From: Blautia sp. An249
GTDB lineage: Bacteria; Bacillota; Clostridia; Lachnospirales; Lachnospiraceae
NCBI RefSeq assembly: GCF_002159835.1
Contig: NZ_NFJL01000003.1
Coordinates: forward strand, 1-64,000
DNA length: 64,000 bases
Direction of reading: 5' to 3'
Shown one piece after another: positions 46,884 through 63,839 of the stretch (position 1 is the first letter of the stretch; each line of letters begins with the position of its first letter). Both the position numbers and the translations under genes were made by a program. The notes under the pieces are model-generated. The model did no database searches, had not been told where the DNA came from, and saw nothing but the letters and a program-made list of their open reading frames with translations.

Positions 46884-46936
46884 TTGAAGCAGCATAAGGT
46901 CTTTGCTATAATCAGATCAGACATGCAAGCATGTCT
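46884..46936 (+). promoter_or_regulatory. Promoter with a palindrome at the transcription start
   Basis: TTGAAG 46884-46889, 17 bases, TATAAT 46907-46912, then the perfect palindrome AGACATGC-AA-GCATGTCT at 46919-46936. The palindrome lies where a repressor would block initiation, or it could form a 5' mRNA hairpin. Confidence 0.6.
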
Positions 46937-47005
46937 GCCTGGCTCACTGCCTGCGTAATAAAAAGAAAAGGGTTCTGAAAATCAACTGGAACAGCGGTGG
47001 AATTT

Positions 47006-48094: not shown

Positions 48095-48174
48095 GAATAA
48101 GAGCCTAAGGAAAGCAAAAGGTTGATAGAAATTTGAAAAAGAGAGGGTAGTATCATTTGTAGGGGGGTGATTTT

Positions 48175-48848
48175 ATGGCGCCGAAAATACTTGTCGCAGA
48201 CGACGAAATAGAAATACGGAATATGCTAAAACGCTATTTTACACTTGATGGCTACGATGTGATTACAGCAGCCGGAGGACAGGACGCACGAAACAAATTG
48301 TCGCTTCAGCCGGACATTATTCTGCTGGATATAAATATGCCGGATATAGATGGCCTCTCTTTATGCAAAAGCATACGGGACTTTATTTCATGCCCCATTC
48401 TGTTCCTGACCGCTAATGTGGAAGACAGCGACAAAATCAAAGGCTTTGGCGCAGGAGGGGATGATTACATTGTAAAACCGTTTTCCATTGATGAATTAGG
48501 CGCAAGAGTATCCGCACATCTGCGGCGGGAGAGCCGCAGTAAAGTAAAAGCGCGGGTACTATTCAATGATTGTCTTGCTGTTGACTATACAGAAAGGGCC
48601 GCCTATTGGAATGGACAGGAAATCCCACTTTTGAAAAAGGAGTTCGATATAATCGAAGTCCTTTCGCAAAATCCAGACAGGTCTTTGATAAAGAGCGGCT
48701 TTATGAAGCGGCGTGGGGCTTAGACGGTATGGGGAATAATTCTGTTGTTGCAGAGCATATTCGGAAAATCCGGGCGAAGTTTGCAGCCATAGGTGCAAAG
48801 CAGTACATCGAAACAGTTTGGGGGGTGGGGTATAAATGGCAAAAATAA
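48175..48848 (+). pseudogene. OmpR-family response regulator with a frameshift
   Basis: The receiver domain is intact (phospho-acceptor D52 in DIILLDINMPDIDG, K101 in DDYIVKPF). The winged-helix output domain starts in frame 1 up to IEVLSQNP (about 48675), then continues in another frame as GQVFDKERLYEAAWGL-like sequence through SVVAEHIRKIRAKFAAIG and ETVWGVGYKWQK to TAA 48846-48848. One missing G near CCAGACAGG would explain it. It is either a real one-base deletion that inactivates DNA binding or a sequencing error. The 182-aa truncated product could still accept phosphate. It overlaps the kinase gene by 13 bases. Confidence 0.82.
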
Positions 48849-49999
48849 AGCACAAACTGCGAGACCTCTCCATTTTGCCGACCTTCATATTATTGTCAAT
48901 CGTCTTTATCCTGCTTGCTATGTTGTTGGCTGAGGTTGAAAAGACGATTTTATCCAATGCTCAGACAGAGATAGCTTTCCAGTACTCCAATATCGTAGAG
49001 GGCTTTAATTCTAAAAAGGTTTGGGGCAATCAGGCAGTATTTTGGCTTTCTCAACAGGATAGCAGAAGGATGTGGCTGTATGAAATGTGCCTGTGGCTGC
49101 TGCCGCCTGTTACCTATCTTATCTGCTTCTTTATGGCGGGGGTGACTTTTTATCGGAGTAAGATCAAAACACCGCTTGCCTTGTTGACTGTGGCTTCTGA
49201 ACGGATTGCAGACAATGATTTGGACTTCTCGCTTCAATACGACAGCCATGATGAAATGGGTACATTGTGTGTGGCATTTGAAAAAATGCGTTCTGCTCTG
49301 GAGACAAATAATCGCGAAATGTGGCGGCAAATGGACGAGCGTAAGCGATTAAATGCCGCGTTCTCTCATGATTTGCGGACACCACTCACCGTGTTGGAGG
49401 GTCATTTAGGTATTCTTCAAAAATATGTGCCAGACGGAAAACTATCATCCAACGACATAATAGATACCTATACAGTAATGGCCGGGCAGATGAAACGATT
49501 AAAAACTTATGTTGCCTCAATGAATACCCTGCAGCGGTTGGAAGATATACCAATCAATCGAGAATGTATCCCAACAGCAGATTTTATTGGTCAGTTACGG
49601 GATACCGGAAAAATCGTATGTAATGGAAAGCAGCTTATCTTTCTTAATGAGGCGACGGTTCCAACGCTTTTTCTTGACCCGGAAATCGTTATGCAGGTGT
49701 TTGAAAACCTCCTGTCAAATGCCGTCCGCTATGCGGATGAAGCCGTCACCATACAATGCCGGACAGAGCAAAACACACTATTTCTTTCCGTAGGCGATGA
49801 TGGCAAAGGCTTTGATGATGTTGCGCTCAAATCGGCAACAAACCCTTTTTACACTACCGGGGACGGAGAAAACCAGCATTTAGGGATTGGTCTAAATATT
49901 TGCAAAATCCTGTGCGTGCGTCACGGCGGAAATATATTGCTGTCAAACGGAGCGAAAAAAGGCGCCATAGTTTGTACCAGCTTTGATATGAAAAAATAA
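48836..49999 (+). CDS. Sensor histidine kinase
   Basis: A 387-aa membrane kinase. Two helices (about residues 14-32 and 85-106) enclose a short outer loop of about 50 residues. A HAMP-like linker, the H-box FSHDLRTPLT with His178, and the ATP-binding domain (N box ENLLSNAVRYADEA, G1 VGDDGKGF, G2 HLGIGLNICK) follow. It overlaps the response regulator gene and stands before an ABC transporter pair, the order of peptide-antibiotic sensing modules of BceRS-BceAB type. The HAMP domain and outer loop make it less like BceS itself and more like VanS/CprK-type kinases. Confidence 0.88.
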   Translation: MAKIKHKLRDLSILPTFILLSIVFILLAMLLAEVEKTILSNAQTEIAFQYSNIVEGFNSKKVWGNQAVFWLSQQDSRRMWLYEMCLWLLPPVTYLICFFMAGVTFYRSKIKTPLALLTVASERIADNDLDFSLQYDSHDEMGTLCVAFEKMRSALETNNREMWRQMDERKRLNAAFSHDLRTPLTVLEGHLGILQKYVPDGKLSSNDIIDTYTVMAGQMKRLKTYVASMNTLQRLEDIPINRECIPTADFIGQLRDTGKIVCNGKQLIFLNEATVPTLFLDPEIVMQVFENLLSNAVRYADEAVTIQCRTEQNTLFLSVGDDGKGFDDVALKSATNPFYTTGDGENQHLGIGLNICKILCVRHGGNILLSNGAKKGAIVCTSFDMKK

Positions 50000-50016
50000 C
50001 AAGTATAGATAATAAA

Positions 50017-50052
50017 AAATCTCCTTGTGGAAATCCACCGGGGGATTTTTTT
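50017..50052 (+). terminator. Terminator between kinase and ABC genes
   Basis: AAATCTCC and GGGGATTT plus the inner GTGG/CCAC pair form a stem followed by a T run. The ABC pair therefore probably has its own promoter in 50053-50129. Confidence 0.8.
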
Positions 50053-50129
50053 GATTGACAGATATTTGAAAATTGGGCGGTAAGCTGTATTCGTAACCCC
50101 ATAAGCAGCAGAAAAGGAGAGATAACATT

Positions 50130-50882
50130 ATGTTAGAAATCAGGGAAATTACGAAAACATACCGTTCAAATGGGATGGACTTTCCCGTTTTGAAAGGTGT
50201 ATCAGCAAGTATTTCAGATGGTGAATTCGTCGCAATCATGGGACCGTCCGGCAGTGGTAAAACAACGCTGCTCAATGTGGTGTCTGGCTTTACTTCTGCG
50301 GACAGTGGAAGTGTCCTGCTGGACGGGGAAGACATATTGACAGGGGATGAAAATATCCTTGCCGAAATCCGGCAGCGCCAACTCGGCTTTGTCTTTCAGG
50401 ACTTTATGCTCCTTAATGGATTGACAATCCGGGAGAATGTGTTTTTACCGCAAATAATCGCGGGAAGGCCCGCAAAGAGCATGGAAAGAAAAACCGAAAG
50501 TCTGCTTTCCATGTTCGGGATTGGGGACATTGCGGCGAAATATCCTGCTGAAGTGTCCGGCGGTCAAAAGCAGCGGGCCGCTATTGCAAGAGCATTGTCG
50601 AATAGTCCCTCTGTCATCTTAGCAGACGAGCCCACAGGAAATCTTGATTCCAAATCAGGCGCAGCGGTTATTGAGGCGTTTATAGCTGCAAACAAAAGCA
50701 TGGGCGCTACCATTCTAATGGTAACTCATGACGCATTTGCCGCTTCCTACGCTGATAAGGTAATTGCACTAAAGGATGGAATTGTATTTGGTGAGCTTGT
50801 GCGGCATGGAAAGCCGAAGCAGTTTTTGGATGAACTGCTGGACTTTATCCGAAAGGTTAATGGTGATGGATATGACGCTTAA
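50130..50882 (+). CDS. ABC transporter ATPase, BceA/LolD type
   Basis: A 250-aa ATPase of the MacB/LolD/BceA group. Walker A GPSGSGKTT (residues 38-46), Q-loop GFVFQDFMLL, signature VSGGQKQRAAIARAL, Walker B VILADEPTGNLDS, switch His MVTHDAF. It works with the FtsX-type permease that follows, whose start overlaps this gene's end. Such pairs give resistance to bacitracin- or lantibiotic-like peptides by freeing lipid II-cycle targets. The substrate here is not known. Confidence 0.93.
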   Translation: MLEIREITKTYRSNGMDFPVLKGVSASISDGEFVAIMGPSGSGKTTLLNVVSGFTSADSGSVLLDGEDILTGDENILAEIRQRQLGFVFQDFMLLNGLTIRENVFLPQIIAGRPAKSMERKTESLLSMFGIGDIAAKYPAEVSGGQKQRAAIARALSNSPSVILADEPTGNLDSKSGAAVIEAFIAANKSMGATILMVTHDAFAASYADKVIALKDGIVFGELVRHGKPKQFLDELLDFIRKVNGDGYDA

Positions 50883-52908
50883 TGAGATCAGCCGCAAGCT
50901 CATAAAGAATGACCGAAAGCAGTATGCGCTTTTTTTCTTCTCCGTTCTCTTTTCCATCATAATGACCGGGGCATACGGCGTACTGCAATACAGCCCCACG
51001 ATTACAAATGTACTGGCAGACGGCGGTTCCACGCAGACCATTTCACAAGGAATGTTTTTCGGCTCTATGCTTGGTATTGTCGTTTTCCTTGTTTATGCGG
51101 ACGTTTTATTTCTAAAATATAAGTCGCGGGAAATCGGGATTTTCCTTTCGCTTGGGATTGACGGCCGCAGCGTACAGAAAATCATTATCAGGGAGTTTAC
51201 AACCTTGTTTCAGATTGCCGCCTTGCTGGGGCTGATTTTGTCCGTTCCCTTTGCGTTTTTGTGCTGGACGTCACTGAACATTTTTTTGAAAACACAGGAA
51301 ACGGCATTTTCGATTGGCTGGGGAGGACTGCTAATTGCCCTTGTCTTTTCCGTCCTATCCTGGCTGATTTTGCGTGAGGTCAACCGCAGATATATTTGTA
51401 CCCTTGATATTTTGAAAATATTAAAAAGTTCTGATGAAAACGAAGGCACAAAAAGCGGAAATCTGCTTTTTCTGATTTTGGGGGCTGCTCTTGTTCCAGT
51501 GGGCATCATAGCCTTTTTCACATTGCAGAATATGGGAGGCTTCCTGAACGCGCTTCTTGCCTTTATGGGCCTTGCCGCTGCCGTATGGGGTGTTTATATT
51601 CTGATTATTCAATGCGCTTCAATCGGGGATATTCTGAAAAGATTTTGCGTTCAGGCCTATTACAAAAACATTGTATTTTATAACCTCTTAAAGCAGAAAA
51701 TCAGGCAATATACCCGCTCTATTTTTGCTGCGTCTTTGCTTATTACCTTTACTATTTTCGGTATTGGCTTTATCGCTGCCGGATTTGTGGATGGGTATAA
51801 TGTGGCGCTCAATGAACCATATGACTATACGATAAGCACCACGGCGGACAGAACGGAAATAACGCAACAGCGCATTTCCTCTATTGCGGAGGAAACAAAC
51901 ACGGCAATTACAGAAATTATCCGGCTGGATTGCCTTTTGATTGGGGTGGAAAACACCTACAAAGACGGATCCACCGATTGGGGTTCCCGTGTAATTGTGA
52001 GTGAAAGCACATTCGAGGAACTTTGCGGACAGGAAGTAACCGTACCAAAAGGAAGCTATACTCTTTGTTTTGATGGTTCCATGCAGTATAAGCGAAATGC
52101 ATTTCATAGCAGCAGCAGCTTGTTCTATAATCCGACCACGGGGGACGAGGCCGTTTATACGCAGAATGAGCCGATTTCTATTGACAGGCTGGTGAATTCC
52201 CGCTCTTTCTTTTCGTCCTTTTTAATCCTCAATGACGATGATTATATGGACATTTCATCGACGCTTGGGGCGGAATATAAGGCAACTACATTCCTGTTGA
52301 ATGTTGCCGATTGGCGCAGCACAGGAGTATTTCAGAACCGCATATTGGAAGAAGTAATCTCTGACAATGACGAGATGATTTTCACAAATTGGCATAACAG
52401 CGCAACCTTTGAAAAGACAGGAAGTAAAGCGGAGTATTTGTCTTATATTGGGAACGAAACCCGTATTGCCCGTGTATGGGCCCTTTATCCCCTGTCAAAG
52501 CTCTCCAGTGCAACAACACAGTTTGAGGCGTTTGCCATCTATCTCATGCTCATGCTGTTTATTGCAATTGTAGCCTTTGTGTCCTCTATCATGGTGGTGG
52601 GTCTTAAACTTGTCAGTACAATATGGGACGATGCAGCCGTGTACGAAAATCTCCGGCGTTTAGGCATGAAGCCACGCGGGATACGGCGTCTTATCACAAG
52701 GCAAATGGTCTTTGTCTATTTCATTCCCACTGTCTTTGGCTGTCTTGTCGGAGCATTTACAACATACCGGATTATGCTTGTTTCAGGTGTGATTTACATT
52801 GCGGAAACAATGCAGGTTGTCGGTGTCGCCTGTGGATTGGTGGCAGTATTACAGCTTTTAATTTTTGCTGTGCTACGTTCCAGAATTATTTGGAATTGTA
52901 TCTCATAG
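50872..52908 (+). CDS. FtsX-like ABC permease, BceB type
   Basis: A 678-aa membrane protein of about ten helices. It has a short N-terminal helix group, FtsX-type segments (MLGIVVFLVYADVLFLKYKSREIGIFLSLG), a large outer domain of about 215 residues between helices 7 and 8 (roughly from the DGYNVALNEPYDYTIS segment to the WALYPLSKL segment), and C-terminal helices. The large outer domain after helix 7 is the BceB hallmark for antimicrobial peptide sensing. The start is uncertain among ATG 50860, 50866 and 50872; all overlap the ATPase gene. Confidence 0.88.
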   Translation: MTLNEISRKLIKNDRKQYALFFFSVLFSIIMTGAYGVLQYSPTITNVLADGGSTQTISQGMFFGSMLGIVVFLVYADVLFLKYKSREIGIFLSLGIDGRSVQKIIIREFTTLFQIAALLGLILSVPFAFLCWTSLNIFLKTQETAFSIGWGGLLIALVFSVLSWLILREVNRRYICTLDILKILKSSDENEGTKSGNLLFLILGAALVPVGIIAFFTLQNMGGFLNALLAFMGLAAAVWGVYILIIQCASIGDILKRFCVQAYYKNIVFYNLLKQKIRQYTRSIFAASLLITFTIFGIGFIAAGFVDGYNVALNEPYDYTISTTADRTEITQQRISSIAEETNTAITEIIRLDCLLIGVENTYKDGSTDWGSRVIVSESTFEELCGQEVTVPKGSYTLCFDGSMQYKRNAFHSSSSLFYNPTTGDEAVYTQNEPISIDRLVNSRSFFSSFLILNDDDYMDISSTLGAEYKATTFLLNVADWRSTGVFQNRILEEVISDNDEMIFTNWHNSATFEKTGSKAEYLSYIGNETRIARVWALYPLSKLSSATTQFEAFAIYLMLMLFIAIVAFVSSIMVVGLKLVSTIWDDAAVYENLRRLGMKPRGIRRLITRQMVFVYFIPTVFGCLVGAFTTYRIMLVSGVIYIAETMQVVGVACGLVAVLQLLIFAVLRSRIIWNCIS

Positions 52909-52976
52909 AAAGATAGTATGATTACAATTCTTTTTTACTATGAAATTTATGAGTGTATCATAAATTTGCAAGTATA

Positions 52977-53004
52977 TTGAAAAGAACCAATTAACTTTTA
53001 TAAT
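52977..53004 (+). promoter_or_regulatory. Promoter of the lar-like operon
   Basis: TTGAAA 52977-52982, 16 bases, TATAAT 52999-53004, 33 bases before the first ATG, with GGGAGG as ribosome binding site. Confidence 0.6.
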
Positions 53005-53036
53005 AGACAATATAAAATGTCTGGGAGGTTAAATCA

Positions 53037-53510
53037 ATGAAAAGAGCAGCGGAAATCATTCATCTCTTACCGGAAAACAGAAAAAAATATCTGGAGAAGT
53101 ATACAAATCCTTCAACGGAAGCGGCTCGGATTTTATGGCAGGCAGGGATTCGGAAACAGTTTTACTATGAGTTTGGAGATGAAATTTTACGTACCTATGA
53201 GTACACGGGAAAGCAGTTTCAAGTGGACATGAAACGTATTTTGCAGGCAAAAGAAACAACGGATTTTTTCCTTCAGCGACGGAGAAAGGATGTGCCGGAG
53301 AAGGAGAGAGCAGCAACGGAGTGGTGGGCGCCTTTGAAATGGTACGGCGCCTCTCTGATGGCAGAGCCGCAGTCAGAAGAAGATGAGATGTCTAATAAAG
53401 AAGCATATCATCGTATGGTATCCGGAGAGATGTCAGAAGAAGATGAGGATATGGAAGTTTTTCACTTTATTTATGATGAAGATGACTGGAGCGAATCCAT
53501 TCATATGTAA
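53037..53510 (+). CDS. L-rhamnose mutarotase-like (DUF718) protein
   Basis: A 157-aa protein whose first about 110 residues follow the RhaM/DUF718 dimeric alpha-beta barrel pattern (LLPENRKKYLEKYTNP, AGIRKQFYYEF, and the late ATEWWAPL with the Trp pair). RhaM interconverts the anomers of rhamnose. The rest is an acidic tail (SEEDEDMEVFHFIYDEDDW) not seen in RhaM. No rhamnose genes are nearby. It is the first gene of an operon with larC2, larB and larC1, so its substrate may instead belong to that system. Confidence 0.65.
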   Translation: MKRAAEIIHLLPENRKKYLEKYTNPSTEAARILWQAGIRKQFYYEFGDEILRTYEYTGKQFQVDMKRILQAKETTDFFLQRRRKDVPEKERAATEWWAPLKWYGASLMAEPQSEEDEMSNKEAYHRMVSGEMSEEDEDMEVFHFIYDEDDWSESIHM

Positions 53511-53536
53511 AATGCAGAAAGGGAGGGGAAGAAGGA

Positions 53537-54040
53537 ATGGACATATATTCAAAAGAAGGTCTTCTGATACTGGTACAGATTGATCATCTAAGCGGCGAAC
53601 TTTTAGGCAATGTAATAGAAGATTTTTATGATGCCGGGGCAAAAAATGTACAGATAGTGAGTGCCATTACAAAGAAAAACCGTCCGGCGTATATGATTTT
53701 TATCGATGTCCCCTTCCAAAAAGCAGATAAAGTAGAAAATGTGATTATAAAAGAGTGTGGATCCTCAGGCTGGCACAGAATTTCTACCTGTCACCGTCAT
53801 ACCAATGTTTCTGTTCAGAAGAAACAAATAAAAATCCGGACAGAAAAAGGATATTACAATTTTGAGGCAGAAGGGAAGGTCATTAACGATGACTGGAAAC
53901 ATGCCAGACCGGAATATGAAAACTGTATAAAACTTAAAAAACTTCTTCTCGAAAAAGAAGGAATTTCAATTCCGGTGAAAAATATTCAAAACTACCTGTC
54001 CATGTTGTTTTATGAGGAAAAAAATGAACTGACTATTTAG
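53537..54040 (+). CDS. larC2: LarC2-like protein (C-terminal half of the nickel insertase)
   Basis: A 167-aa protein matching the C-terminal part of LarC: LVQIDHLSGELLGNVIEDFYDAGAKNVQI near the start, AYMIFIDV, and the EKGYYNFEAEGKVINDDWKHARPEYENC segment. LarC inserts nickel into the pyridinium-dithiocarboxylate mononucleotide (pincer) cofactor. In Lactobacillus plantarum LarC1 and LarC2 are joined by a programmed frameshift. Here LarC2 is a free gene, with LarC1 encoded 2.6 kb downstream at 56678. GGGAGGGG precedes the ATG. Confidence 0.82.
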   Translation: MDIYSKEGLLILVQIDHLSGELLGNVIEDFYDAGAKNVQIVSAITKKNRPAYMIFIDVPFQKADKVENVIIKECGSSGWHRISTCHRHTNVSVQKKQIKIRTEKGYYNFEAEGKVINDDWKHARPEYENCIKLKKLLLEKEGISIPVKNIQNYLSMLFYEEKNELTI

Positions 54041-54050
54041 GAGGAAATCT

Positions 54051-55850
54051 ATGGAAAATAATAACAAAGCAAAGATACTGTCTGCCGCACAAATGGCATC
54101 GGTATCAAATATTTCAAATTTAACAAACGACCGGATTGAAGCTCTTGCCGGAGGGCACGGAATGGTAAATATTGCAATCCATACAGTAGCCAATGTTATA
54201 GCAGAAGAGCTTCTTGGAGGAGGCAGCATTGCCATCCGGTTTGCAGATGCCCGTCAACTGCCAGTGGAAAATATTATAAAAAAGGCAATCGATACAGCAA
54301 AAGCCTCCGGGGCAGATGGTGCAAATGCAGCATTGCTGACGGCGGTACTGATGTATCTTGCAGGAACTGCAGCCCAGGTAGGAATCCCCGCAGGAAACAG
54401 GAAACTGGGAGCAACCTGCCGTATGCTGGCAGGAGTGGATCGCAGTGGTGTAAGCGCAATTCCCACATCTAAAATGAATAGTAAAATTTCTGCTTTTCCG
54501 GCTGTTCTGGCAGTCAATCAGGCAATGTTAGACGGAACGTTATCACCCATTAATGGAAGAGATGTCCCTCAGAATGTAGGCGGAAGTCCTTTATATGGTC
54601 ACAGTGCCTTAGGAGAGGATATTATCTGGCCGGGAATCGCAAAAAAAGGAGCGGAGATCGGAACAAAGGCGATGCTGGATGCTATGGCAGGAGCAGGGAT
54701 ACGTCCGGATCCCCTTCATGCCGCTTTATTCGGTGCGGCGGCAATCCTTGAGGTGATTCATCCGGATGCGGAAGTACCGGAAGGAGAAGGACGATATGGA
54801 AGAACCACATCTGTGCGGCTTGTGGGAAAAGCGGCAGCTGAAACAGCAGGACTTCCGGAAAAAATACATATGCATCTGACCAATCAGGAATTTGATACGG
54901 CACAGCTTGTGGGAGATATAGGATTAATTCTAAAAGATATTGGGGGACCTTCTGTCATTGGTATGATGGCTCTGGCTGAAATTCTGGCCTGCTTTAAGGA
55001 AGGAATCTCCAGCGGATTTTCTTCCGGCCCGGTGAATGCGCCGCTGGGACACCAGGGTTCCTATGCCGTTGCTGTTATGAAAGCTCTTCTGGAAGAAAAT
55101 GCAGATCCAAAGGAAATTGCAGAACAGCTCGTTCAGGAGCGAACCGCAAACTCTCTGAATCCGGAATCGGCTCTGGTAAGTATCAATATTATAGCGAGAA
55201 AAGCAGATGAGGTAAGGCTCGGACCAGTGACCAGGCTGATGATTAGGGCGACAGAACCTATGCGTACAAAGGCGATTTTTACAAAAGCCTCCTTTACCTA
55301 TGACCAGTTAAAAGAAGGAAAAAGTCTGGCAGAAGTTGTAAAAGCCCTGGATGACCAACGACTTTTGACAGTGGAAACCCAGGCAGGAGCTCTTTTCAGT
55401 GAGATGACAGGAGAAAAAGTGACTGTAAAAGTAGAAAATCTTCACAGTGCTGCAAGAAGAACCGCAAAATTAGTAAAAAAATACTGGTCATTTGATCCCT
55501 ACGTGGATATGACGGTAACTTTGGGAGAAAAGAAGGCTGTCATGGAAGGATTTGTTCATGACATCATTCCAAGAGTATGCCAGGGAGAATGTCAGGATGT
55601 AGCCTGGGCTGTCCCCTTTGCGGCAGGAGTCATGGATGAACTTGCACTTGCAGGCTGTAACATTTTAAATGTGGTAATCCCTGTGGCAGTGGCATCTGCT
55701 CTGAAACTAAATGACCCGTCTGTCCTGGCAGAAGAAGCGGAACGGGCTGCTTATATAAGTGTGGGAATACCCGGGGCAAAAGCACATGCCACAGAGGCAG
55801 GTATTCTGGCATCTGAAATCGCAGAATTTATGCAGACATCTTACTTTTAA
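54051..55850 (+). CDS. 599-aa protein of unknown function in the lar locus
   Basis: I do not recognise this family. The 599-aa chain is Ala/Gly-rich, soluble by eye, and has no signal peptide or Cys cluster. Notable segments are GGHGMVNIAIHTVANVIAEELLGGG, GVSAIPTSKMNSKISAFPA, DVPQNVGGSPLYGHSALGEDI, SSGPVNAPLGHQGSY and a late VCQGECQDVAWAVPFAAGVMDELA. Several His residues sit in Gly-rich loops, a setting seen in cofactor- or metal-binding enzymes. It lacks the LarA signature. It lies 10 bases after larC2 and 70 before larB, so it may be the enzyme that uses the nickel-pincer cofactor. That is inference from position only. Confidence 0.8.
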   Translation: MENNNKAKILSAAQMASVSNISNLTNDRIEALAGGHGMVNIAIHTVANVIAEELLGGGSIAIRFADARQLPVENIIKKAIDTAKASGADGANAALLTAVLMYLAGTAAQVGIPAGNRKLGATCRMLAGVDRSGVSAIPTSKMNSKISAFPAVLAVNQAMLDGTLSPINGRDVPQNVGGSPLYGHSALGEDIIWPGIAKKGAEIGTKAMLDAMAGAGIRPDPLHAALFGAAAILEVIHPDAEVPEGEGRYGRTTSVRLVGKAAAETAGLPEKIHMHLTNQEFDTAQLVGDIGLILKDIGGPSVIGMMALAEILACFKEGISSGFSSGPVNAPLGHQGSYAVAVMKALLEENADPKEIAEQLVQERTANSLNPESALVSINIIARKADEVRLGPVTRLMIRATEPMRTKAIFTKASFTYDQLKEGKSLAEVVKALDDQRLLTVETQAGALFSEMTGEKVTVKVENLHSAARRTAKLVKKYWSFDPYVDMTVTLGEKKAVMEGFVHDIIPRVCQGECQDVAWAVPFAAGVMDELALAGCNILNVVIPVAVASALKLNDPSVLAEEAERAAYISVGIPGAKAHATEAGILASEIAEFMQTSYF

Positions 55851-55920
55851 TTGAATCCCATAAAAAGAAGGAGCATAGCGGCAGAGATGCCGCTGTGTTT
55901 CTTCAGACAAAGGAGAAAAA

Positions 55921-56667
55921 ATGAAAAAAAGGGAACTGTATGAAATTTTAAATGAAGTAAAAGAAGGAAAACTTCCCGTAAATGAGGCGGTTTTTGAACT
56001 GAAGAAGATGCCGTTTGAAGATCTAGGGTATGCGAAAATTGACTACCACAGGGAATTAAGACAAGGATATGGCGAAGTGATTTTCGGACAGGGGAAGACT
56101 GCGGAACAGATAATCGGGATTCTTACTTCTATGAAAGCAGCGGGACAGAATACGATTTTAATCACCAGGCTGTACCAGGAAGCGGCTGAAAAAATAAAAG
56201 AGAAATTTGATTTGTATTATGATCCCGATTCACATATCGGATTTTCAGGAGAGAAACCTGCCCCCGACGGAAAAGGTACCATACTGATTATGACAGGAGG
56301 AACAAGCGACATTCCTGTTGCTGAAGAAGCGGCATGGACGGCAGAAGTCATGGGAAACCGGGTACAGCGTGTTTATGACGTAGGCGTTGCAGGCATACAC
56401 CGTACTCTGGCACATATGGAAGATATTATGAAAGCAAATGTAATCATTGCAATCGCAGGTATGGAAGGAGCGCTTGCAAGTGTAATCGCCGGTCTTGCAG
56501 ATTGTCCGGTTATTGCAGTTCCTACAAGTATAGGATATGGCACCTCTTTTCATGGTCTTGCAGCGCTTTTATCTATGTTAAATTCCTGTGCCAATGGAGT
56601 TGCCACAGTGAATATCGATAATGGATTTGGCGCGGGCTGCTTTGCCAGCATGATCAATCACAGATAG
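55921..56667 (+). CDS. larB: Nickel pincer cofactor biosynthesis protein LarB
   Basis: LarB carboxylates and hydrolyses nicotinic acid adenine dinucleotide in the first step of pincer cofactor synthesis. The 248-aa length is normal. The C-terminal half is an AIR-carboxylase (PurE-like) fold: ILIMTGGTSDIPVAEEAAWTAEVMG, YDVGVAGIHRTLAHME, VIIAIAGMEGALASVIAGL and VPTSIGYGTSFHGLAALLSMLNSC. The N-terminal segment EILNEVKEGKLPVNEAVFEL is also typical. larC1 follows after 10 bases. Confidence 0.95.
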   Translation: MKKRELYEILNEVKEGKLPVNEAVFELKKMPFEDLGYAKIDYHRELRQGYGEVIFGQGKTAEQIIGILTSMKAAGQNTILITRLYQEAAEKIKEKFDLYYDPDSHIGFSGEKPAPDGKGTILIMTGGTSDIPVAEEAAWTAEVMGNRVQRVYDVGVAGIHRTLAHMEDIMKANVIIAIAGMEGALASVIAGLADCPVIAVPTSIGYGTSFHGLAALLSMLNSCANGVATVNIDNGFGAGCFASMINHR

Positions 56668-56677
56668 GAGGAAAACG

Positions 56678-57433
56678 ATGTGTACAGTTTATTTTGACTG
56701 CGAAAGAGGGGCGGCAGGAGATATGATTTGCGCCGCTTTATTCGGACTTATAAAAGATAAGGCAGCTATGGTAAAACGACTGAACAACATGGGGATTCCC
56801 GGAGCAAAGTTTCTGATAAACAATACAAAACGCTATGAGATGGAAGGACTTTCCATGACGGTAGAAATAGGTGAGCAAACGGAGGAAACGGCATTTTCCG
56901 AACATGGCCATACAGCTCATCGGCATATGACTATGGAAACAATCCGTGAAATTGTGGGAAACCTTAAAGTACCGCAGCATATTAAAAAGATGGTTCTGGA
57001 GATATATCAGATGATTGCCCTGGCTGAGTCTGAGGCACATAACTGCCAGGTGACGGAAGTGCATTTCCATGAGGTTGGGGCACTGGATGCGATTGCTGAT
57101 GTTAGTGCCGCCTGTATGCTTTTGGATGAACTTAAGCCGGAGAATATTATTTCTTCTTCCGTCCATGTGGGAAATGGAACGGTACGCTGTGCCCATGGAG
57201 TTCTCGATGTTCCTGCTCCCGCAACTGCAAATCTGCTTCGGGGAATTCCTTATGAAAAAGGAGAAATTGAAGGAGAAATCTGTACACCTACAGGCGCTGC
57301 TCTTTTGCGGTACTTTGTGCAGAAATTCGGCGTACCTATTCCGGAAAGTTCTATAAAAAAATCGGGAATAGGAATCGGCAAAAGAAAATTTCAGAAACCT
57401 AGCTTTTTTATGGCGGCTATCCTTGCAGAATAA
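56678..57433 (+). CDS. larC1: LarC1-like protein (N-terminal half of the nickel insertase)
   Basis: A 251-aa protein matching LarC1: start VYFDCERGAAGDMICAAL, a His-rich stretch (EHGHTAHRHMTME) that can bind nickel, VHFHEVGALDAIADV, and GEICTPTGAALLRYFV. It ends where LarC1 ends (GIGIGKRKFQKPSFFMAAIL). The LarC2 half is a separate gene upstream (53537). GGAGG precedes the ATG. There is no larE (sulfur donor) gene in the window, although the pathway needs that activity. Confidence 0.92.
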   Translation: MCTVYFDCERGAAGDMICAALFGLIKDKAAMVKRLNNMGIPGAKFLINNTKRYEMEGLSMTVEIGEQTEETAFSEHGHTAHRHMTMETIREIVGNLKVPQHIKKMVLEIYQMIALAESEAHNCQVTEVHFHEVGALDAIADVSAACMLLDELKPENIISSSVHVGNGTVRCAHGVLDVPAPATANLLRGIPYEKGEIEGEICTPTGAALLRYFVQKFGVPIPESSIKKSGIGIGKRKFQKPSFFMAAILAE

Positions 57434-57470
57434 AATATGATACAATGGAAATCGAAAGGAGCTGTATGTT

Positions 57471-57845
57471 ATGTATCAGAAAAAAATGCAGGAAGATATA
57501 CGGTGTCCGTTAGAATACGGTCTGGATGTTTTCGGAGGCAAATGGAAATCCAGAATTATATGTGTACTGGCTGCTAAGGAAAAACTGCGATATAGTGAAA
57601 TCAGAAAAGAAATGTGCAATATCACCGATGCGGTTTTGTCATCAACATTAAAGGAATTAATCGCAGATAAAATTGTTATCCGAAAATCGTACGATGAAAT
57701 TCCTCCGAAGGTTGAATACTCACTTACGGAAAAGGGAAAATCGGTTGTTCCGATTCTGCAGAATATTTGTAAATGGTCTGGGATTTTTTATAAAAAAGAC
57801 AGTGAACATACCATGACACAGTGCCAGAAATGTGACCACTTATAA
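57471..57845 (+). CDS. HxlR-family transcriptional regulator
   Basis: A 124-aa winged-helix regulator with the HxlR signature CPLEYGLDVFGGKWKSRIICVL and LKELIADKIVIRKSYDEIPPKVEYSLTEKG. The Cys at the start of that signature (residue 10) is the one that senses aldehydes or oxidants in several members. It precedes a LysE-type exporter by 35 bases and may control it. It starts 37 bases behind larC1 with AAAGGAG upstream. Confidence 0.9.
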   Translation: MYQKKMQEDIRCPLEYGLDVFGGKWKSRIICVLAAKEKLRYSEIRKEMCNITDAVLSSTLKELIADKIVIRKSYDEIPPKVEYSLTEKGKSVVPILQNICKWSGIFYKKDSEHTMTQCQKCDHL

Positions 57846-57880
57846 AAGCTTGAATCAGTTTGAAAAGGAGAAAAACAGAT

Positions 57881-58468
57881 ATGACCTTTTCCGTGTTAGG
57901 GACACTGTCTTTCTATATGATCGTTAATTCCTTCACTCCCGGTCCGGGCAATATACTGGCCATGAATACGACAACACAGTACGGATGGGGAAAAGGAAAG
58001 AAGCTGATTTTGGGAATCTGCTGCGGATATTTTACAGTTCAGATGATTTGTACGCTGGCATTATATGAATTGAACACACTGCTTACTCCGGTATTATCAC
58101 TGTTAAAGTATATTGGCGCTGTTTATATGTGCTGGCTGGCAATTCATATTTTGCTCAGCCGTCCGGAAAAAAAGAATTTAGATAAAGCCCCTGATTTTTT
58201 CAGAGGTTTTTTATTGCAGCTTGTGAATGTTAAAATCTATTTTTATATTAGTACCTTATTAACCGTGTATCTTATTCCATATATGGAAAATCTGTTCATG
58301 CTTGTGACAGCAGGAATTATAGTAACTGCTGTGGGAAGCGCCGCTTCCCTTGTGTGGGCGTTTTTAGGAGTCAGGCTTCAATCGGGTTATGAAAAGTACT
58401 ATCGTCTGATCAATTCCATTCTTGCGCTGTTTCTGTTTTATTGCGCGTGGGGAATTATGAATCAGTAA
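57881..58468 (+). CDS. LysE-family translocator
   Basis: A 195-aa exporter of the LysE/RhtB group with about six helices. The family start is YMIVNSFTPGPGNILAMNTTTQYG, and the middle contains GFLLQLVNVKIYFYISTLLTVYL in place of the usual NPK motif. It probably exports an amino acid or related compound. ATG 57881 is chosen because AAAAGGAG lies 10 bases upstream; an earlier ATG at 57860 overlaps that site. Confidence 0.88.
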   Translation: MTFSVLGTLSFYMIVNSFTPGPGNILAMNTTTQYGWGKGKKLILGICCGYFTVQMICTLALYELNTLLTPVLSLLKYIGAVYMCWLAIHILLSRPEKKNLDKAPDFFRGFLLQLVNVKIYFYISTLLTVYLIPYMENLFMLVTAGIIVTAVGSAASLVWAFLGVRLQSGYEKYYRLINSILALFLFYCAWGIMNQ

Positions 58469-58489
58469 AATGTGACAGGGAGAGAGAAA

Positions 58490-58894
58490 ATGAAGATTCA
58501 GTATACGGATGAGAAAATTTTTACACAGCAACAGGTAACCGAATTATTTTTATCTGTAGGATGGATTTCCGGCCGGTATCCGGACAGATTATATAAAGCG
58601 TTGAAACATTCTTCTACTGTAATCACTGCATGGGACAGGGAACAGTTGGTGGGCCTTGTCAGAGTCTTAGATGATTCATCAATGCTTGCGTACATACATT
58701 ATGTGCTTGTTCATCCCTCCTATCAGGGAAAAGGGATTGCGGGAACAATGATAAATCAGGTTAAGGAAAAATATAAAGATTTTCCGTATCTTGAAGTTAT
58801 GCCGGAAGAAAGCAAAAATGCTGCGTTTTATGAACAATTCGGATTTCAGATGATGAAAGATGGCGCTGCGATGCAGATTTGCAGTTTCTCATAA
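58490..58894 (+). CDS. GNAT family N-acetyltransferase
   Basis: A 134-aa acetyltransferase. The N-terminal part matches the common small GNAT type (LFLSVGWISGRYPDRLYKAL), and the acetyl-CoA loop is YVLVHPSYQGKGIAGTMINQV (Q-G-K-G-I-A/G). It ends in FYEQFGFQMMKDGAAM. I start at 58490, where GGGAGAGAG lies upstream. It follows the LysE gene by 21 bases and is probably co-transcribed. Substrate unknown. Confidence 0.87.
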   Translation: MKIQYTDEKIFTQQQVTELFLSVGWISGRYPDRLYKALKHSSTVITAWDREQLVGLVRVLDDSSMLAYIHYVLVHPSYQGKGIAGTMINQVKEKYKDFPYLEVMPEESKNAAFYEQFGFQMMKDGAAMQICSFS

Positions 58895-58951
58895 CAAATC
58901 CTCTGTTTAGCATTGCACTGTGGCTGGCGGTATGCCCTTCCAGTCACGGAG

Positions 58952-59120
58952 CTAAATAATCTGTTTGATTATGTGTACAAATTCCTGAGCTGCAGGTGTT
59001 AAGTCCTGCATATTGTTTGCAAATATCCCTATATCGAAAGATATGTCTGTTGTCAGCGACCATATACTATTTCCAGAAGCAATAATAATCAAAACTGACA
59101 GGAATTTCTTCAATATGAAG
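58952..59120 (-). pseudogene. C-terminal fragment of a LysR-family regulator
   Basis: The minus strand reads LHIEEIPVSFDYYCFWK, then, after a frame change, SIWSLTTDISFDIGIFANNM and QDLTPAAQEFVHIIKQII to a stop at 58954-58952. This is the typical end of a LysR effector domain. The HTH and most of the sensor are absent, and one frameshift is present. It borders the heme-operon control region, which may have been placed here by the deletion. Bases 58895-58951 hold nothing assignable. Confidence 0.6.
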
Positions 59121-59235
59121 GTTAGCGAAAACTAACACAATAAAAAATTCTGTATTGACAGGAAATAATTAGCATGTTATACCTAAAGGAGGTAGTCGCA
59201 ACTAACTCATATTATATGGGTAGTCCTTCCTAACC
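59120..59235 (+). promoter_or_regulatory. Heme-uptake operon promoter with three operator-like repeats
   Basis: TTGACA 59155-59160, 17 bases, TATACC 59178-59183. Three related imperfect palindromes occur: GGTTAGCGAAAACTAAC (59120-59136), GGTAGTCGCAACTAAC (59191-59206) and GGTAGTCCTTCCTAACC (59219-59235). The GTTAG/CTAAC half-sites resemble DtxR/IdeR-type iron boxes. MtsR, a DtxR-family protein, controls the related operon in Streptococcus pyogenes. Confidence 0.65.
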
Positions 59236-59303
59236 TGCGCTATAAAAGATTACGGGAATCGGAAAGAAACAATTTTCAATCCCAAAGGGTGGAGGAAGAG
59301 AGT

Positions 59304-59342
59304 ATGAAGAAGAAAACAGAGAGAGCAGACAGGAGAGATTAA
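59304..59342 (+). CDS. 12-codon leader peptide
   Basis: MKKKTERADRRD follows a strong site (GGAGGAAGAG) and ends in TAA, overlapping the A of the shp ATG (TAATG). The second ribosome binding site for shp lies inside it. It may couple or tune translation of the heme protein. Such short frames can also arise by chance. Confidence 0.35.
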   Translation: MKKKTERADRRD

Positions 59343-60460
59343 TGAAAACAGTAAAAAGAATGAGAAAAATCCTTGCCGGACTGCTTGGACTGTTCCTGTT
59401 TGTCCTTATTGGGGCCGGTACAGTGCAGGTGCAGGCGGCAAGCGGCAATGTATATACCTGTGTGATTCATCCCTGTTACGCACATCCGGTCACCGGGGTA
59501 ATCGAGGATTCCGGAGGGGAAGCTTCCTATGCTACCGGACAGGGGATGATTGACGGAGCAGTCTATACCACAGGCATCCTTGAACTGACGGACAGCGGAG
59601 AATATTACCTGACCATTCGGATGAGTCTGATGGGATATACCAGCGGTCATACGTTCTGGGTGCAGAATGTGGGGGATTCCGGCTGGTCCAGTCCGGCGAT
59701 GGGCATAACAGGTACAGGTACAGACAATAATGGAGACACAGCGGATATCTGTATGCAGGTTCCCAGCGAGAACTGCGTAGTCCGCGGCTCTATGTACGTG
59801 GAGCCTATGGGGAGAGATGTGGTTTTCTATCTTTATCCCAGTGACTATGCAGAAGGAAATAATACAGATATGAATGCTACCATGGTGACGTCAGCCTCGG
59901 GAAGTGACAGTGGGGCAGCCGCCGCAGACAATTCTTCCGGCACGGGTACCGCTGGTACAGCCGCCGCAGAAAACAGTACAGCGGCATCCGCAGATAACTC
60001 TTCCGGTACCAATGCCACAGGAGGCAGTTCTGCGGAAACGCCGGCTTCCTTAGAAAGCAGTGCAGAAAACGGGGAAGGTGAGCCCCCCGCGCAGAACAGT
60101 TCTTCCCCCTCTGATACCAGTACTGCAGCGAATAAAACGACAGATAAGGAATCCGGGAATACAACGGACGAAAGCGAGGCTCCGGCCTTGTCCAGCTCCA
60201 TTGAGCTGGCGGCGGAACCGACGTCGGATACGGTCACGGATAAAGAACTCAATGACGCGCAGGGCTTAAGTCTTTCAACAGCGGAGGCTGCTGCAGAAGA
60301 AGGGACAGCGGGAACTTCCGGCGGAACCAGCGCCTTTGCCATTGGGACAGCCATTACGGTATCCGGCCTGATCCTGATGGGCGCTGCAGCAGTAATCGTA
60401 TATTTCTTCCGTAAGAACTGGAGACGCTGGGGCGGAGGTTACGATGATGATGAAATTTAG
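59342..60460 (+). CDS. shp: Cell-surface heme-binding Shp-like protein
   Basis: A 372-aa secreted, membrane-anchored protein. A signal peptide (about residues 1-33) is followed by an Shp heme-binding domain, recognised from YTCVIHPCYAHPVTGVIEDSGG, ATGQGMIDGAVYTTGILELT, SGEYYLTIRMSLMGYTSGH and a domain end at YLYPSDYAEGNNTDM. A low-complexity Ser/Ala/Thr/Glu stalk and a C-terminal helix (ITVSGLILMGAAAVIVYFF) with a basic tail anchor it. In S. pyogenes Shp takes heme and passes it to HtsA; the next gene encodes the HtsA counterpart. Confidence 0.88.
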   Translation: MKTVKRMRKILAGLLGLFLFVLIGAGTVQVQAASGNVYTCVIHPCYAHPVTGVIEDSGGEASYATGQGMIDGAVYTTGILELTDSGEYYLTIRMSLMGYTSGHTFWVQNVGDSGWSSPAMGITGTGTDNNGDTADICMQVPSENCVVRGSMYVEPMGRDVVFYLYPSDYAEGNNTDMNATMVTSASGSDSGAAAADNSSGTGTAGTAAAENSTAASADNSSGTNATGGSSAETPASLESSAENGEGEPPAQNSSSPSDTSTAANKTTDKESGNTTDESEAPALSSSIELAAEPTSDTVTDKELNDAQGLSLSTAEAAAEEGTAGTSGGTSAFAIGTAITVSGLILMGAAAVIVYFFRKNWRRWGGGYDDDEI

Positions 60461-61571
60461 AGCAGGACATAAGAGCAAAAGGCTGGCAGGAGCCGTCCTA
60501 AGTACAGCGCTGGCCTGCAGTCTCTTGACAGGGTGCGTGGATCAAAGGGGCGGGGCTTCCGAGACGGAAGCAGCCCGGAAAGAGACGGCACAGGCTGCAG
60601 AGACCCTCCTTGCGATCACAGATCCCCGGGAAAAAGCAGCGGTAGAAGCGGCAAAGGCTAAGGTGGCAGCCATGGAAGAAGAACCCAGAATCATTGCTAC
60701 TTCCCCGGCCGCGGCTGATATTTGCGACAGACTAAAGCTGGATCTTGTAGGCATATGTTCCAGTACGATTTCCACTTTGCCGGATCGGTATGCGGATGTG
60801 GAGCAGGTGGGAACCTCTATGAGCCCCGATATGGAGATTGTAGCATCCCTGTCTCCGGACTGGATTTTAAGTCCTGCAAGCCTGCAGTCAGATCTGCAGC
60901 CAAAGTATGAGGCTATTGAAACGGACTGGGCATTTCTGAATCTGCGCAGCGTACCGGGCATGTACCGCTCCATTCAGGAGCTGGGGGAAATCTTTGATCG
61001 AAAGGAACAGGCCCAGGAGATGGTGAATGAGTTTACAGAATTCTATGAAGATTACAGCACTGCCAATGAGGGAAAGGAAAATCCGAAGGTACTGATCCTC
61101 ATGGGGCTTCCCGGCAGTTATATTATTGCAACAGAAAATTCCTATGTGGGAAGTCTGGTAGAACTGGCAGGAGGAGAGAACGTTTATGCCGGCACGGAGC
61201 AGGAATTTCTGACTGTCAATACGGAAGACATGCAGTCGAAGGAACCGGATGTGATTCTGCGTGCGGCCCATGCTCTTCCGGATCAGGTAATTGAGATGTT
61301 TAACGAAGATTTTAAAACCAGCGGTATCTGGCAGCATTTCACCGCTGTACAGGAAGGAAGGGTCTATGATTTATCCTATGAGCTCTTTGGTATGAGCGCC
61401 ACCTTCCGCTATCCGGAAGCATTGGAAGAGCTGCAGCCCATGCTTTATCCGGAAAGCGAAGAAGACGAGGCGAAGGCGAAATCCAACAGCGAGAACGCCG
61501 CCCGGGCAGCCGAAGAGAGCGAAGCCAGCGAGAAAACAAATGAGGAAACGCTGAAGGAAATTACCAGGTAG
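60444..61571 (+). CDS. Heme ABC transporter substrate-binding lipoprotein (HtsA/IsdE-like)
   Basis: A 375-aa lipoprotein with the lipobox LLTGC (Cys31) and a periplasmic-binding-protein domain of helical-backbone type: PRIIATSPAAADICDRLKLDLVGI, EQVGTSMSPDMEIVASLSPDWIL, and SYVGSLVELAGGENVYAG. It should receive heme from Shp and give it to the permease. The gene overlaps shp by 17 bases with GGAGG in the overlap. A charged Ala/Glu-rich tail (about the last 45 residues) is an unusual addition. Confidence 0.9.
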   Translation: MMMKFRAGHKSKRLAGAVLSTALACSLLTGCVDQRGGASETEAARKETAQAAETLLAITDPREKAAVEAAKAKVAAMEEEPRIIATSPAAADICDRLKLDLVGICSSTISTLPDRYADVEQVGTSMSPDMEIVASLSPDWILSPASLQSDLQPKYEAIETDWAFLNLRSVPGMYRSIQELGEIFDRKEQAQEMVNEFTEFYEDYSTANEGKENPKVLILMGLPGSYIIATENSYVGSLVELAGGENVYAGTEQEFLTVNTEDMQSKEPDVILRAAHALPDQVIEMFNEDFKTSGIWQHFTAVQEGRVYDLSYELFGMSATFRYPEALEELQPMLYPESEEDEAKAKSNSENAARAAEESEASEKTNEETLKEITR

Positions 61572-61583
61572 GAGGGATATCGC

Positions 61584-62618
61584 ATGAAAAAACTGGAGGA
61601 AAGTCATCGGATGGATATGAGCCGGAAAAAGAAAAAGACGGCGCGGGCCACATTCTCCTTCCTGATTATGGGTGTCCTGCTGATAATTCTGATTTTTGCC
61701 GCAGTGAATATGGGAAGCCTCCGGGTATCTCCGTCAGAGCTGTTCCGGGGACTGTTTATCGAACGAATCGAAAATGTGGCAGCGATCTACGATCTGCGGT
61801 TTCCCCGAATTGTTATTTCCCTGTTTGCAGGCGCAGCGGTGGCAGTCTCCGGTGTACTGTTCCAGGCGGTTCTTAAGAATCCCCTGGCAGATCCGGGAAT
61901 TATCGGCATTTCCGGCGGGGCAGGTTTTACCGCTGTTTTGATTACCGCATTCCTTCCGTCGCTGTTTTTTTTCACACCCTTGTTTGCATTTGCAGGCGGT
62001 GTGCTGGCCTTCTTCCTTGTATACAGCCTGTCGTGGAAAGGCGGACTGAGTCCTCTGCGTATCATCCTGACCGGCGTGGCCGTAAGCACCGTGTTTACCG
62101 GACTTTCCGATGCGCTTAATTCCATGACCGGAGGCAGTTCTACAGGGGTTGCGTCTATCGTGGAAGGAAATATCACACAGAAAACGTGGGAGGACGTACA
62201 GACTCTCCTCCCCTATGTTATAGGAGGACTGATCCTTGCCATCTTGTTTTCCGGGATGTGTAATCTGATGTCGCTGGAGGACAAGACGGCGCGGGGACTG
62301 GGCGTCAACGTGAATCTGATGCGGATTCTGATTTCCCTGGTTGCAGTGCTTCTGGCCAGTATCTCCACAGCAGTGGCCGGGGCTGTCAGCTTCCTGGGAC
62401 TGCTTGTGCCGCATATCGGGCGTCTCCTGGTGGGAAGCGATCACCGGGCGCTGATTCCCTTTTCCATGCTGGCAGGAGCGTTTACTTTCCTGCTGGCCGA
62501 TACCATCGGCAGGACGATAGCGGCGCCTTACGAGGTGTCTGCGTCTGTCATTATGAGTGTGATCGGCGGCCCGTTCTTCATCATTCTGTTAAGGAGGTCG
62601 AAGAAATATGCAGCGTGA
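61584..62618 (+). CDS. FecCD-type heme ABC transporter permease
   Basis: A 344-aa permease of the BtuC/FecCD group with about ten helices. Family motifs are YDLRFPRIVISLFAGAAVAVSGVLFQAVLKNPLADPGIIGISGGAGF near the N-terminus, and the coupling region ISTAVAGAVSFLGLLVPHIGRLLVG. AGGAGGG precedes the ATG. It overlaps the ATPase gene by 11 bases and belongs to the shp operon. Confidence 0.93.
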   Translation: MKKLEESHRMDMSRKKKKTARATFSFLIMGVLLIILIFAAVNMGSLRVSPSELFRGLFIERIENVAAIYDLRFPRIVISLFAGAAVAVSGVLFQAVLKNPLADPGIIGISGGAGFTAVLITAFLPSLFFFTPLFAFAGGVLAFFLVYSLSWKGGLSPLRIILTGVAVSTVFTGLSDALNSMTGGSSTGVASIVEGNITQKTWEDVQTLLPYVIGGLILAILFSGMCNLMSLEDKTARGLGVNVNLMRILISLVAVLLASISTAVAGAVSFLGLLVPHIGRLLVGSDHRALIPFSMLAGAFTFLLADTIGRTIAAPYEVSASVIMSVIGGPFFIILLRRSKKYAA

Positions 62619-63396
62619 GGATAAGAAAAAATCTGCCATGGAAGTGAGAAACCTGTTCTTTTCCTTTGGAAAAAACAAAGTGTTAAAGGATACGTCATTC
62701 AGGATTGAGGAAGGGAAAATCACCACCATCATGGGTGCAAACGGATGCGGCAAGTCCACTCTGTTTAACCTGATGACGAAAAACCTGTACCCGGGCAGAG
62801 GAAATATTTTTCTTTACGGAAAAAATATCCAGAACCTTGCCCTTAAAGAATTTGCCAGAAGGGTATCCATTGTCCATCAGTATAATTCGTCGGCGGACGA
62901 CATCACTGTGGAGCGGCTGGTTTCCTTTGGCCGTACCCCTCATATGAAACTGATGCAGGGGCGAAGCGAGGAGGATGAGCGTCTGATCCAGTGGGCGATG
63001 GAGGTTACCAATGTGAAGAAGTATAAAGACAGGGAAGTCAGCCGGCTTTCCGGCGGACAGCGGCAGCGTGTGTGGATTGCCATGGCGCTGGCTCAGAATA
63101 CGAAGATTCTCTTTTTGGACGAACCAACTACCTATCTGGATATCCGCTACCAGATCGAGATTCTGGAACTGGTGAAAAAACTCAATGAAGAGTACGGAAT
63201 CACGATTATTATGGTACTCCATGACATCAATCAGGCGATCCATTTCTCTGATCGGATCATCGGACTGAAAGACGGGCATGTGGAGGCGGACGGAGCTCCC
63301 AGGGAGGTTATCACCACAGAGTGCATCCAGAAACTGTATGGAATCTCCCTGGGAGTAACCACAATAGAAGGAAAGAAATTTGTACTGACTGTATAA
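62608..63396 (+). CDS. Heme ABC transporter ATP-binding protein
   Basis: A 262-aa FepC-type ATPase. Walker [10 protein letters not shown] (about residues 44-52), Q-loop region [23 protein letters not shown], signature [15 protein letters not shown], Walker [13 protein letters not shown], switch His MVLHDINQ. It powers the heme permease encoded just upstream. AAGGAGG lies before the ATG inside the permease gene. Confidence 0.94.
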
Positions 63397-63410
63397 CAGG
63401 AGTGAAAAAA

Positions 63411-63809: not shown

Positions 63810-63839
63810 ATCCAGGTATTAACAGGAAAAGAGGAAACT

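Follow-up and report, generated by a model that had tools for sequence, protein, structure and literature searches.

A candidate non-LarA nickel-pincer enzyme family, encoded with larB and larC genes in Blautia sp. An249

Which protein is served by a set of nickel-pincer cofactor genes that has no lactate racemase gene beside it? The question is raised by a locus of Blautia sp. An249 that lies in the window, the whole stretch of 64,000 nucleotides analysed here (contig NZ_NFJL01000003.1, positions 1 to 64,000), in which open reading frames (ORFs) were listed and searched with Pfam and NCBIfam profiles. The locus contains five co-directional ORFs with gaps of 10-70 bases, one of which encodes a 599-amino-acid protein, here referred to as u599.

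53037..53510, + strand: 157-amino-acid ORF, no family above cut-off
53537..54040, + strand: larC2, a stand-alone gene of the LarC2 type (nickel-insertion domain; NF052512, 62 bits, cut-off 50)
54051..55850, + strand: u599, 599-amino-acid protein without Pfam or NCBIfam family, candidate nickel-pincer enzyme
55921..56667, + strand: larB (pyridinium carboxylase/hydrolase of nickel-pincer synthesis; NF033503, 293 bits, cut-off 175)
56678..57433, + strand: larC1 (N-terminal part of the nickel insertase; TIGR00299, 186 bits, cut-off 90)

As in LarC, which is composed of LarC1 and LarC2 (structure 6bwo), both domains are present in the window with scores over the curated cut-offs, but LarC2 is here a separate gene of a distinct group, located upstream of u599. 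The window LarC2 has a Pfam Ni_insertion match (positions 246-363) and matches the LarC2 structure 6bwo weakly (E 0.004). A sequence-only reading of this DNA had joined larB, larC1, a larC2-like gene and the 599-amino-acid gene into one operon with a rhamnose-mutarotase-like gene. The common direction and the profile scores bear out the first four, while the mutarotase call has no profile support: the 157-amino-acid ORF did not match the rhamnose mutarotase profile in a Pfam search at E up to 1, its single match in that search was sub-threshold and to an unrelated family (E 0.056), and a profile search found no relative of it in the 49 other u599 loci described below.

We consider the locus to be, more likely than not, a dedicated maturation cassette for u599, a candidate nickel enzyme apparently unrelated to LarA. 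The known part of the system would be the pincer cassette and the different part a client protein other than LarA. A role of u599 as a nickel-pincer enzyme is supported because its linkage to lar genes extends over several phyla and because u599 is found in genomes without a LarA match. These two observations strengthen the earlier suggestion of a new nickel-pincer enzyme with the 599-amino-acid protein as the candidate, although larA homologues do exist elsewhere in this genome.

Linkage of u599 to larC2 and the cofactor pathway

A protein search in which 7995 candidates were scored identified 856 homologues of u599 at E up to 0.001, and there is no informative name among the 120 matches listed. 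For the analysis of gene order, a species-level genome collection was scanned with two exact peptide patterns, an approach that misses divergent members, and the lar neighbours in the resulting 49 loci were scored with small profiles. Judging from the record titles, the loci are from Clostridia, Sporomusa, alpha-, beta- and gammaproteobacteria, and from metagenome-assembled genomes (MAGs) of Nitrospirales, Balneolaceae and Pyramidobacter. In 42 of the 49 loci, larC2 was found at a distance of no more than 1.4 kb from u599, and in 41 the two genes directly adjoin; aminotransferase pieces separate them in Sporomusa (L020). At the second copy in Blautia schinkii (L055), which has no larC2 nearby, larB-larC1 follow directly downstream of u599. 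Two loci (L045, L060) are cut at a contig end, yet larC1 or larE-larB are visible, and in four others (L048, L051, L053, L057) the contig end cuts through u599 itself, with no lar gene on the visible side. The order u599-larC2-larC1-larE-larB was observed in 19 of the 49 loci (alpha- and gammaproteobacteria, Thiobacillus). The idea that u599 replaces LarE, considered in view of the lack of larE in the window, was rejected on the grounds that larE lies in one run with u599 in these 19 loci.

In the rhizobia, a nickel permease gene is next on the same strand in 9 of the 12 loci (NicO by Pfam in L044), and the remaining three have only short opposite-strand fragments after the operon. The annotation of the Rhizobium tropici CIAT 899 plasmid lists, in order, a hypothetical protein (u599), larC, a LarC family protein, two hypothetical proteins, larB and a HoxN/HupN/NixA transporter, of which the two hypothetical proteins between the LarC family protein and larB correspond to larE in two pieces. 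Such a larE gene, in two pieces with an in-frame stop and situated between larC and larB, was seen in L035, L036, L037, L047 and L074. R. lusitanum, R. leucaenae, R. freirei and the CIAT 899 plasmid have it in common; u599, larC and larB remain open in this Rhizobium tropici group. Two further peculiarities concern the u599 gene itself. In B. schinkii, two copies (L024, L055) are located on one contig about 13 kb apart, start to start, and between them are genes for LarA, a split UxaA/galactarate-dehydratase-like pair, a PatB-type C-S lyase and an NhaC-like carrier. In a Eubacteriaceae MAG (L059:10007-11777, the same as L072/L073), u599 is found in two overlapping frames and is broken or mis-assembled.

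The stand-alone LarC2 proteins were compared with the C-terminal domains of conventional LarC proteins. All ten proteobacterial operons examined encode a stand-alone LarC2 beside a full-length LarC with a C-terminal domain of different sequence, such that in the alpha- and gammaproteobacterial loci the stand-alone LarC2 is additional to the full-length protein. The tree included 48 stand-alone rows (one from the window, 41 from loci, two from plasmid loci and four, L070-L073, that repeat L021, L023 and L059), ten LarC C-termini and the LarC2 of the window genome that is encoded on contig C68. In the FastTree analysis, the stand-alone rows, the window LarC2 included, formed one group with a support of 0.88, or 0.97 without the Sporomusa sequence (L020). 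In view of the short alignment and the small outgroup, in which only one LarC2 represents the Bacillota outside the cassette, the grouping is suggestive. Since the stand-alone sequences group apart, we regard the stand-alone LarC2 as a putative dedicated partner of u599. An HxH motif is present in 34 of the 48 stand-alone sequences and missing in 14, and we do not claim it as a nickel motif.

We also compared the distribution of u599 with those of LarA, LarB and LarE. The Lar_N profile was searched in 41 u599 genomes, leaving out L039 and L055 (same genomes as L034 and L024) along with L012, L014, L045, L053, L057 and L060; LarB and LarE were searched in 44 genomes, of which 41 are distinct (G217, G235 and G251 repeat G041, G008 and G010, with the same match coordinates). 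At E up to 0.001, no Lar_N match was found in 23 of the 41 genomes, including all 13 of G020-G032 (Paracoccus, Mesorhizobium, Rhizobium, a gammaproteobacterial MAG, Thiobacillus, Sinorhizobium) and both Anaerosphaera. LarB scored over the cut-off in 38 of the 41 distinct genomes and LarE likewise in 38, so that the family does not reside mostly in genomes devoid of the cofactor genes. A survey of the 599-amino-acid family where larA is absent had been proposed together with the sequence-only reading, and it came out in favor of that reading: 21 of the 23 genomes without a LarA match keep both LarB and LarE over the cut-off.

All 14 alphaproteobacterial genomes with u599, a set that includes many close relatives, had LarB, as compared to 28 of 385 genomes sampled from the class of Sinorhizobium terangae, in which u599 occurred once (1/385, the centre genome itself). 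In the class of the window genome, for which a completeness of at least 90 was asked for, 126 of 293 genomes had LarB over the cut-off and four had u599 (the window genome, G217, G235 and G251). The family is rare in both sampled classes and will not account for most larB-bearing genomes there, and u599 was rejected as a general answer for such genomes.

About 15% of the genomes analysed in a previous study have larB, larE and larC but no larA, and the available part of that report, which puts its emphasis on cyanobacteria and names no protein, expects a non-LarA cofactor-binding protein that is yet to be identified (PMC11796402). The occurrence of u599 in LarA-less genomes fits this predicted pincer-binding protein. 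Unlike the cyanobacterial emphasis in the available text of PMC11796402, there was no cyanobacterium, judging from record titles, among the 49 loci of this rare family, as recovered with only two exact patterns. Neither a candidate for the non-LarA pincer protein nor u599 as a nickel-pincer partner was mentioned in the open-licence titles and abstract openings that were searched. There is a substantial chance that u599 represents a categorically new nickel enzyme family. It is a tangible candidate, a single gene in an operon that is conserved in soil bacteria available in culture (Rhizobium, Sinorhizobium, Mesorhizobium), and the genomes searched from these genera have no LarA match to confound tests of u599. 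If u599 does carry the cofactor, nickel-pincer catalysis would extend beyond one protein family, its substrate range may widen, and the split-off LarC2 would be given a role.

Conserved residues, predicted fold and proposed chemistry of u599

LarA proteins (Lar_N PF09861, LarA_C PF21113) are hydroxyacid racemases and epimerases. Like LarA, u599 shares its loci with larB, larC and larE, on which it seems to depend, and is a probable user of the same cofactor. Unlike LarA, it has no Lar_N match and no similarity in profile-profile comparisons to five LarA homologues (hhalign probability 0.2%), and its predicted model is mostly helical. Searches at E up to 0.1 assigned the full-length protein to no Pfam or NCBIfam family, and residues 1-405 of 18 members gave no Pfam match.

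Conservation was assessed in an alignment of 167 sequences, consisting of the window protein, 119 of the 120 listed homologues and 47 copies from the loci with hits longer than 1650 bases, with a few repeats among the rows and with broken or cut copies excluded. At least 98.5% of the sequences have the same residue at 93 of the 599 positions, and 32 of these residues are polar. The invariant residues include D27, H36, N116-R117-K118, R124, R131, K141, K145, H184, E189-D190, E234, H237, D239, D289, K295-D296, E310, E317, H334, K384, R469-R470 and D482; the Pyramidobacter protein (L048) deviates at N40 and N143. The four invariant histidines and five invariant lysines would suit a nickel site and the binding of an anionic cofactor. 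The AlphaFold model (pLDDT 87, pTM 0.88) consists largely of helices, has strands in the vicinity of residues 457-498 and is poor in the conserved loop around residues 31-37. Neither the model of residues 1-599 (pLDDT 87) nor that of residues 1-405 (pLDDT 81) matched a structure in the PDB at E up to 0.001, a result that does not exclude a known fold, that of LarA included.

We propose a sequence of events in which LarB would convert nicotinic acid adenine dinucleotide to the pyridinium dicarboxylate nucleotide, the sulfurs would be added by the single clear LarE of the genome, which is encoded on C68 and would be shared, and nickel would be inserted by LarC1 together with the stand-alone LarC2 (pathway as given in PMC11796402). 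The finished nickel-pincer nucleotide would then be loaded onto u599, which is predicted to bind it, with H36, H184, H237, H334, K118, K141, K145, K295 and K384 as putative ligands of the nickel, the cofactor phosphate or the substrate. The chemistry may be a hydride-transfer isomerization, as in LarA, acting on a small amino or hydroxy acid.

No single pathway fits the genes around u599 in all loci. A PatB-type C-S lyase was identified in 11 of the 49 loci (L024 and L055 share one gene), with TIGR04350 over the cut-off in 4 of 4 tested, and RidA in eight. Both occur in Bacillota and rhizobia, whereas in Pyramidobacter only the lyase is present. PatB-type C-S lyases are not rare. An amino-acid ABC transporter is encoded nearby in the rhizobial loci and amino-acid carriers in L019 and L020, whereas u599 stands alongside LarA and a UxaA-like dehydratase in L024, L055 and L025, and near folate one-carbon genes (named by eye) in L019, L021 and L022. 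Of the activities that these neighbors may suggest, the isomerization of an amino acid or hydroxy acid in connection with the breakdown of sulfur amino acids seems the least forced, a guess that we offer with low confidence.

Evidence that complicates the assignment

The profile searches confirmed that neither LarA nor LarE is encoded inside the window, as the sequence-only reading had stated, but both are present on other contigs of the genome (3.94 Mb, 68 contigs, 99.9% complete, 3.2% contamination). There are two clear LarA homologues with Lar_N scores of 210 and 141 bits, one on C21 (429 amino acids, Lar_N and LarA_C) and one on C68 (481 amino acids, Lar_N). A single LarE scored over the cut-off (C68:27331-28113, 287 bits) in a cluster with the order larE-larB-TauE/SafE-larC1, which contains the second of the two LarB proteins (294 bits); a second LarC2-bearing ORF is located farther along C68, and parts of LarC are found at four places in total. 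With LarB, LarE and LarC all encoded, the nickel-pincer pathway is complete, and as the window cassette lacks larE, LarE must be shared if the cassette makes the cofactor. The u599 gene is present in a single copy. The C21 homologue (L068:2856-7758) adjoins TRAP-transporter-like and GntR-regulator-like genes (named by eye), a neighborhood that suggests organic acid uptake. Two more Lar_N matches in the genome are weak; the one at C68:26617 (L066:4069-5190), beside larE, is a DUF362 ferredoxin-type protein (188 bits for DUF362 versus 23 for Lar_N). Partial matches of this kind near the Pfam cut-off can inflate automatic counts of LarA.

The two LarA homologues, one LarE and second LarB/LarC set could be taken to mean that the window locus is a spare cofactor set for LarA, with u599 as a chance neighbor. 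The larA genes elsewhere in the genome would then explain larB and larC, but a separate larE-larB-larC1 cluster is present on C68, the window larC2 falls within the group linked to u599, and no LarA match was obtained in 23 of the 41 genomes with u599. We reject this explanation, to which we assign hardly any probability, because the pairing of u599 with larC2 recurs across phyla. The window LarB and LarC1 score 400/376 and 273/234 bits, respectively, against their counterparts in L055 and L016, as compared to 247 and 127 against the other pair of the genome.

Several observations weigh against u599 being a dedicated pincer enzyme. The similarity of the window LarB and LarC1 to those of L015, L017 and L018 amounts to 262-268 and 127-134 bits, hardly more than the 247 and 127 obtained with the other pair of the genome. 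The 49 loci, selected with two exact peptide patterns, include many related rhizobia, and larC2 is the sole lar gene near u599 in four betaproteobacterial/Burkholderiales loci (L027, L029, L031, L052). No fold match to the predicted models backs any enzyme class. A Lar_N match was obtained in 18 of the 41 u599 genomes (17 over the cut-off) and likewise in the window genome; in two of the 18 (G002, G003) it is a weak partial match only, at the profile positions matched by the DUF362 protein of the window genome, and is treated as doubtful. Among the 21 LarA-less genomes with LarB and LarE, four have a larE gene with an in-frame stop (G022, G023, G024, G032). Finally, Anaerosphaera aminiphila (G008), A. 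multitolerans (G009) and a Eubacteriaceae MAG (G010) have genes for u599 and larC2 while neither LarB nor LarE exceeds the cut-off, and their u599 proteins retain all 32 invariant polar residues. It follows from these three genomes that the tightest link of u599 is to LarC2 rather than to the whole pathway, and they are the main evidence against the simple version of our proposal.

The presence of LarA in many of these genomes bears on the possibility that u599 is a maturation helper, i.e., a chaperone, store or transfer protein that delivers the cofactor together with LarC2 to LarA or another client. In accordance with such a function, the most constant partner of u599 is a nickel-insertion domain, L024, L025, L055 and L058 have a LarA gene in the stretch that contains u599 (L024 and L055 share the gene), and the window genome has LarA. 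However, in the 23 genomes without a LarA match a helper would have to serve some additional client that has gone unseen, no LarA-like gene is found in the annotated CIAT 899 stretch, and a protein of about 600 amino acids with 93 near-invariant positions, including four histidines and five lysines, seems more enzyme-like than carrier-like. We find a helper role unlikely.

The genomes without LarB and LarE are relevant to another explanation, in which u599 is an enzyme for nickel or another metal with a LarC-built, non-pincer site, and larB and larE share the locus only when there is some other pincer enzyme. The u599-larC2-larC1 arrangement of the two Anaerosphaera species, the constancy of larC2 as a neighbor and the interrupted larE of the four Rhizobium genomes are all in line with this explanation, which leaves it unexplained why LarB and LarE are kept in 21 LarA-less genomes and form one run with u599 at 19 of the 49 loci. 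A LarC-dependent non-pincer site would explain both Anaerosphaera but not G010, which also carries a LarA homologue (E 6e-67) that would need an imported cofactor anyway. Import of a cofactor precursor would explain all three genomes. Both Anaerosphaera loci (L021, L022) have the order u599-larC2-larC1-DUF1893-ECF S component (by Pfam for L021), although the same order is found in L019, whose genome has LarB and LarE. The stretches in which larC1 is followed by DUF1893 and the ECF S component are L021:12411-14161, L022:12348-14055 and L019:12451-14234. We judge a non-pincer site to be improbable.

On balance, we lean towards u599 being a non-LarA nickel-pincer family, to our knowledge the first to be named, that is mostly helical, lacks detectable relatives among proteins of known structure, has its own LarC2, is linked to amino-acid metabolism in rhizobia and anaerobes, and in a few anaerobes depends on an imported precursor.

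Other features in and around the window locus

A consensus scan and the profile searches identified the following features next to the five ORFs.

52977..53004, + strand: promoter-like site of the sigma-70 type, 11 of 12 consensus matches, ahead of the first ORF
57471..57845, + strand: HxlR-type regulator (PF01638, 95 bits), possible regulator of the cassette
57860-58468, + strand: LysE-type exporter (PF01810), membership of the unit uncertain
58472-58894, + strand: GNAT acetyltransferase (PF00583), membership of the unit uncertain

In the scanned region, 20 promoter-like sites were found as compared to 15.4 expected, and these are consensus matches rather than proof of function. The first terminator-like site on the + strand after the cassette is at 58991-59010 (consensus scan), and neither promoter-like nor terminator-like sites are clearly above the counts in shuffled sequences. 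No Rfam match at gathering scores was obtained for positions 46000-64000 of the window. An HxlR ORF is present in 11 of the 49 u599 loci, all of which are from Bacillota according to the record titles and of which L024 and L055 count the same gene; the co-occurrence may partly be due to chance, HxlR genes being common. Farther upstream in the window, at 46997-48094, a 365-amino-acid ORF combines a cysteine-rich N-terminal part with a C-terminal part that resembles low-molecular-weight phosphatases and arsenate reductases, as judged by eye.

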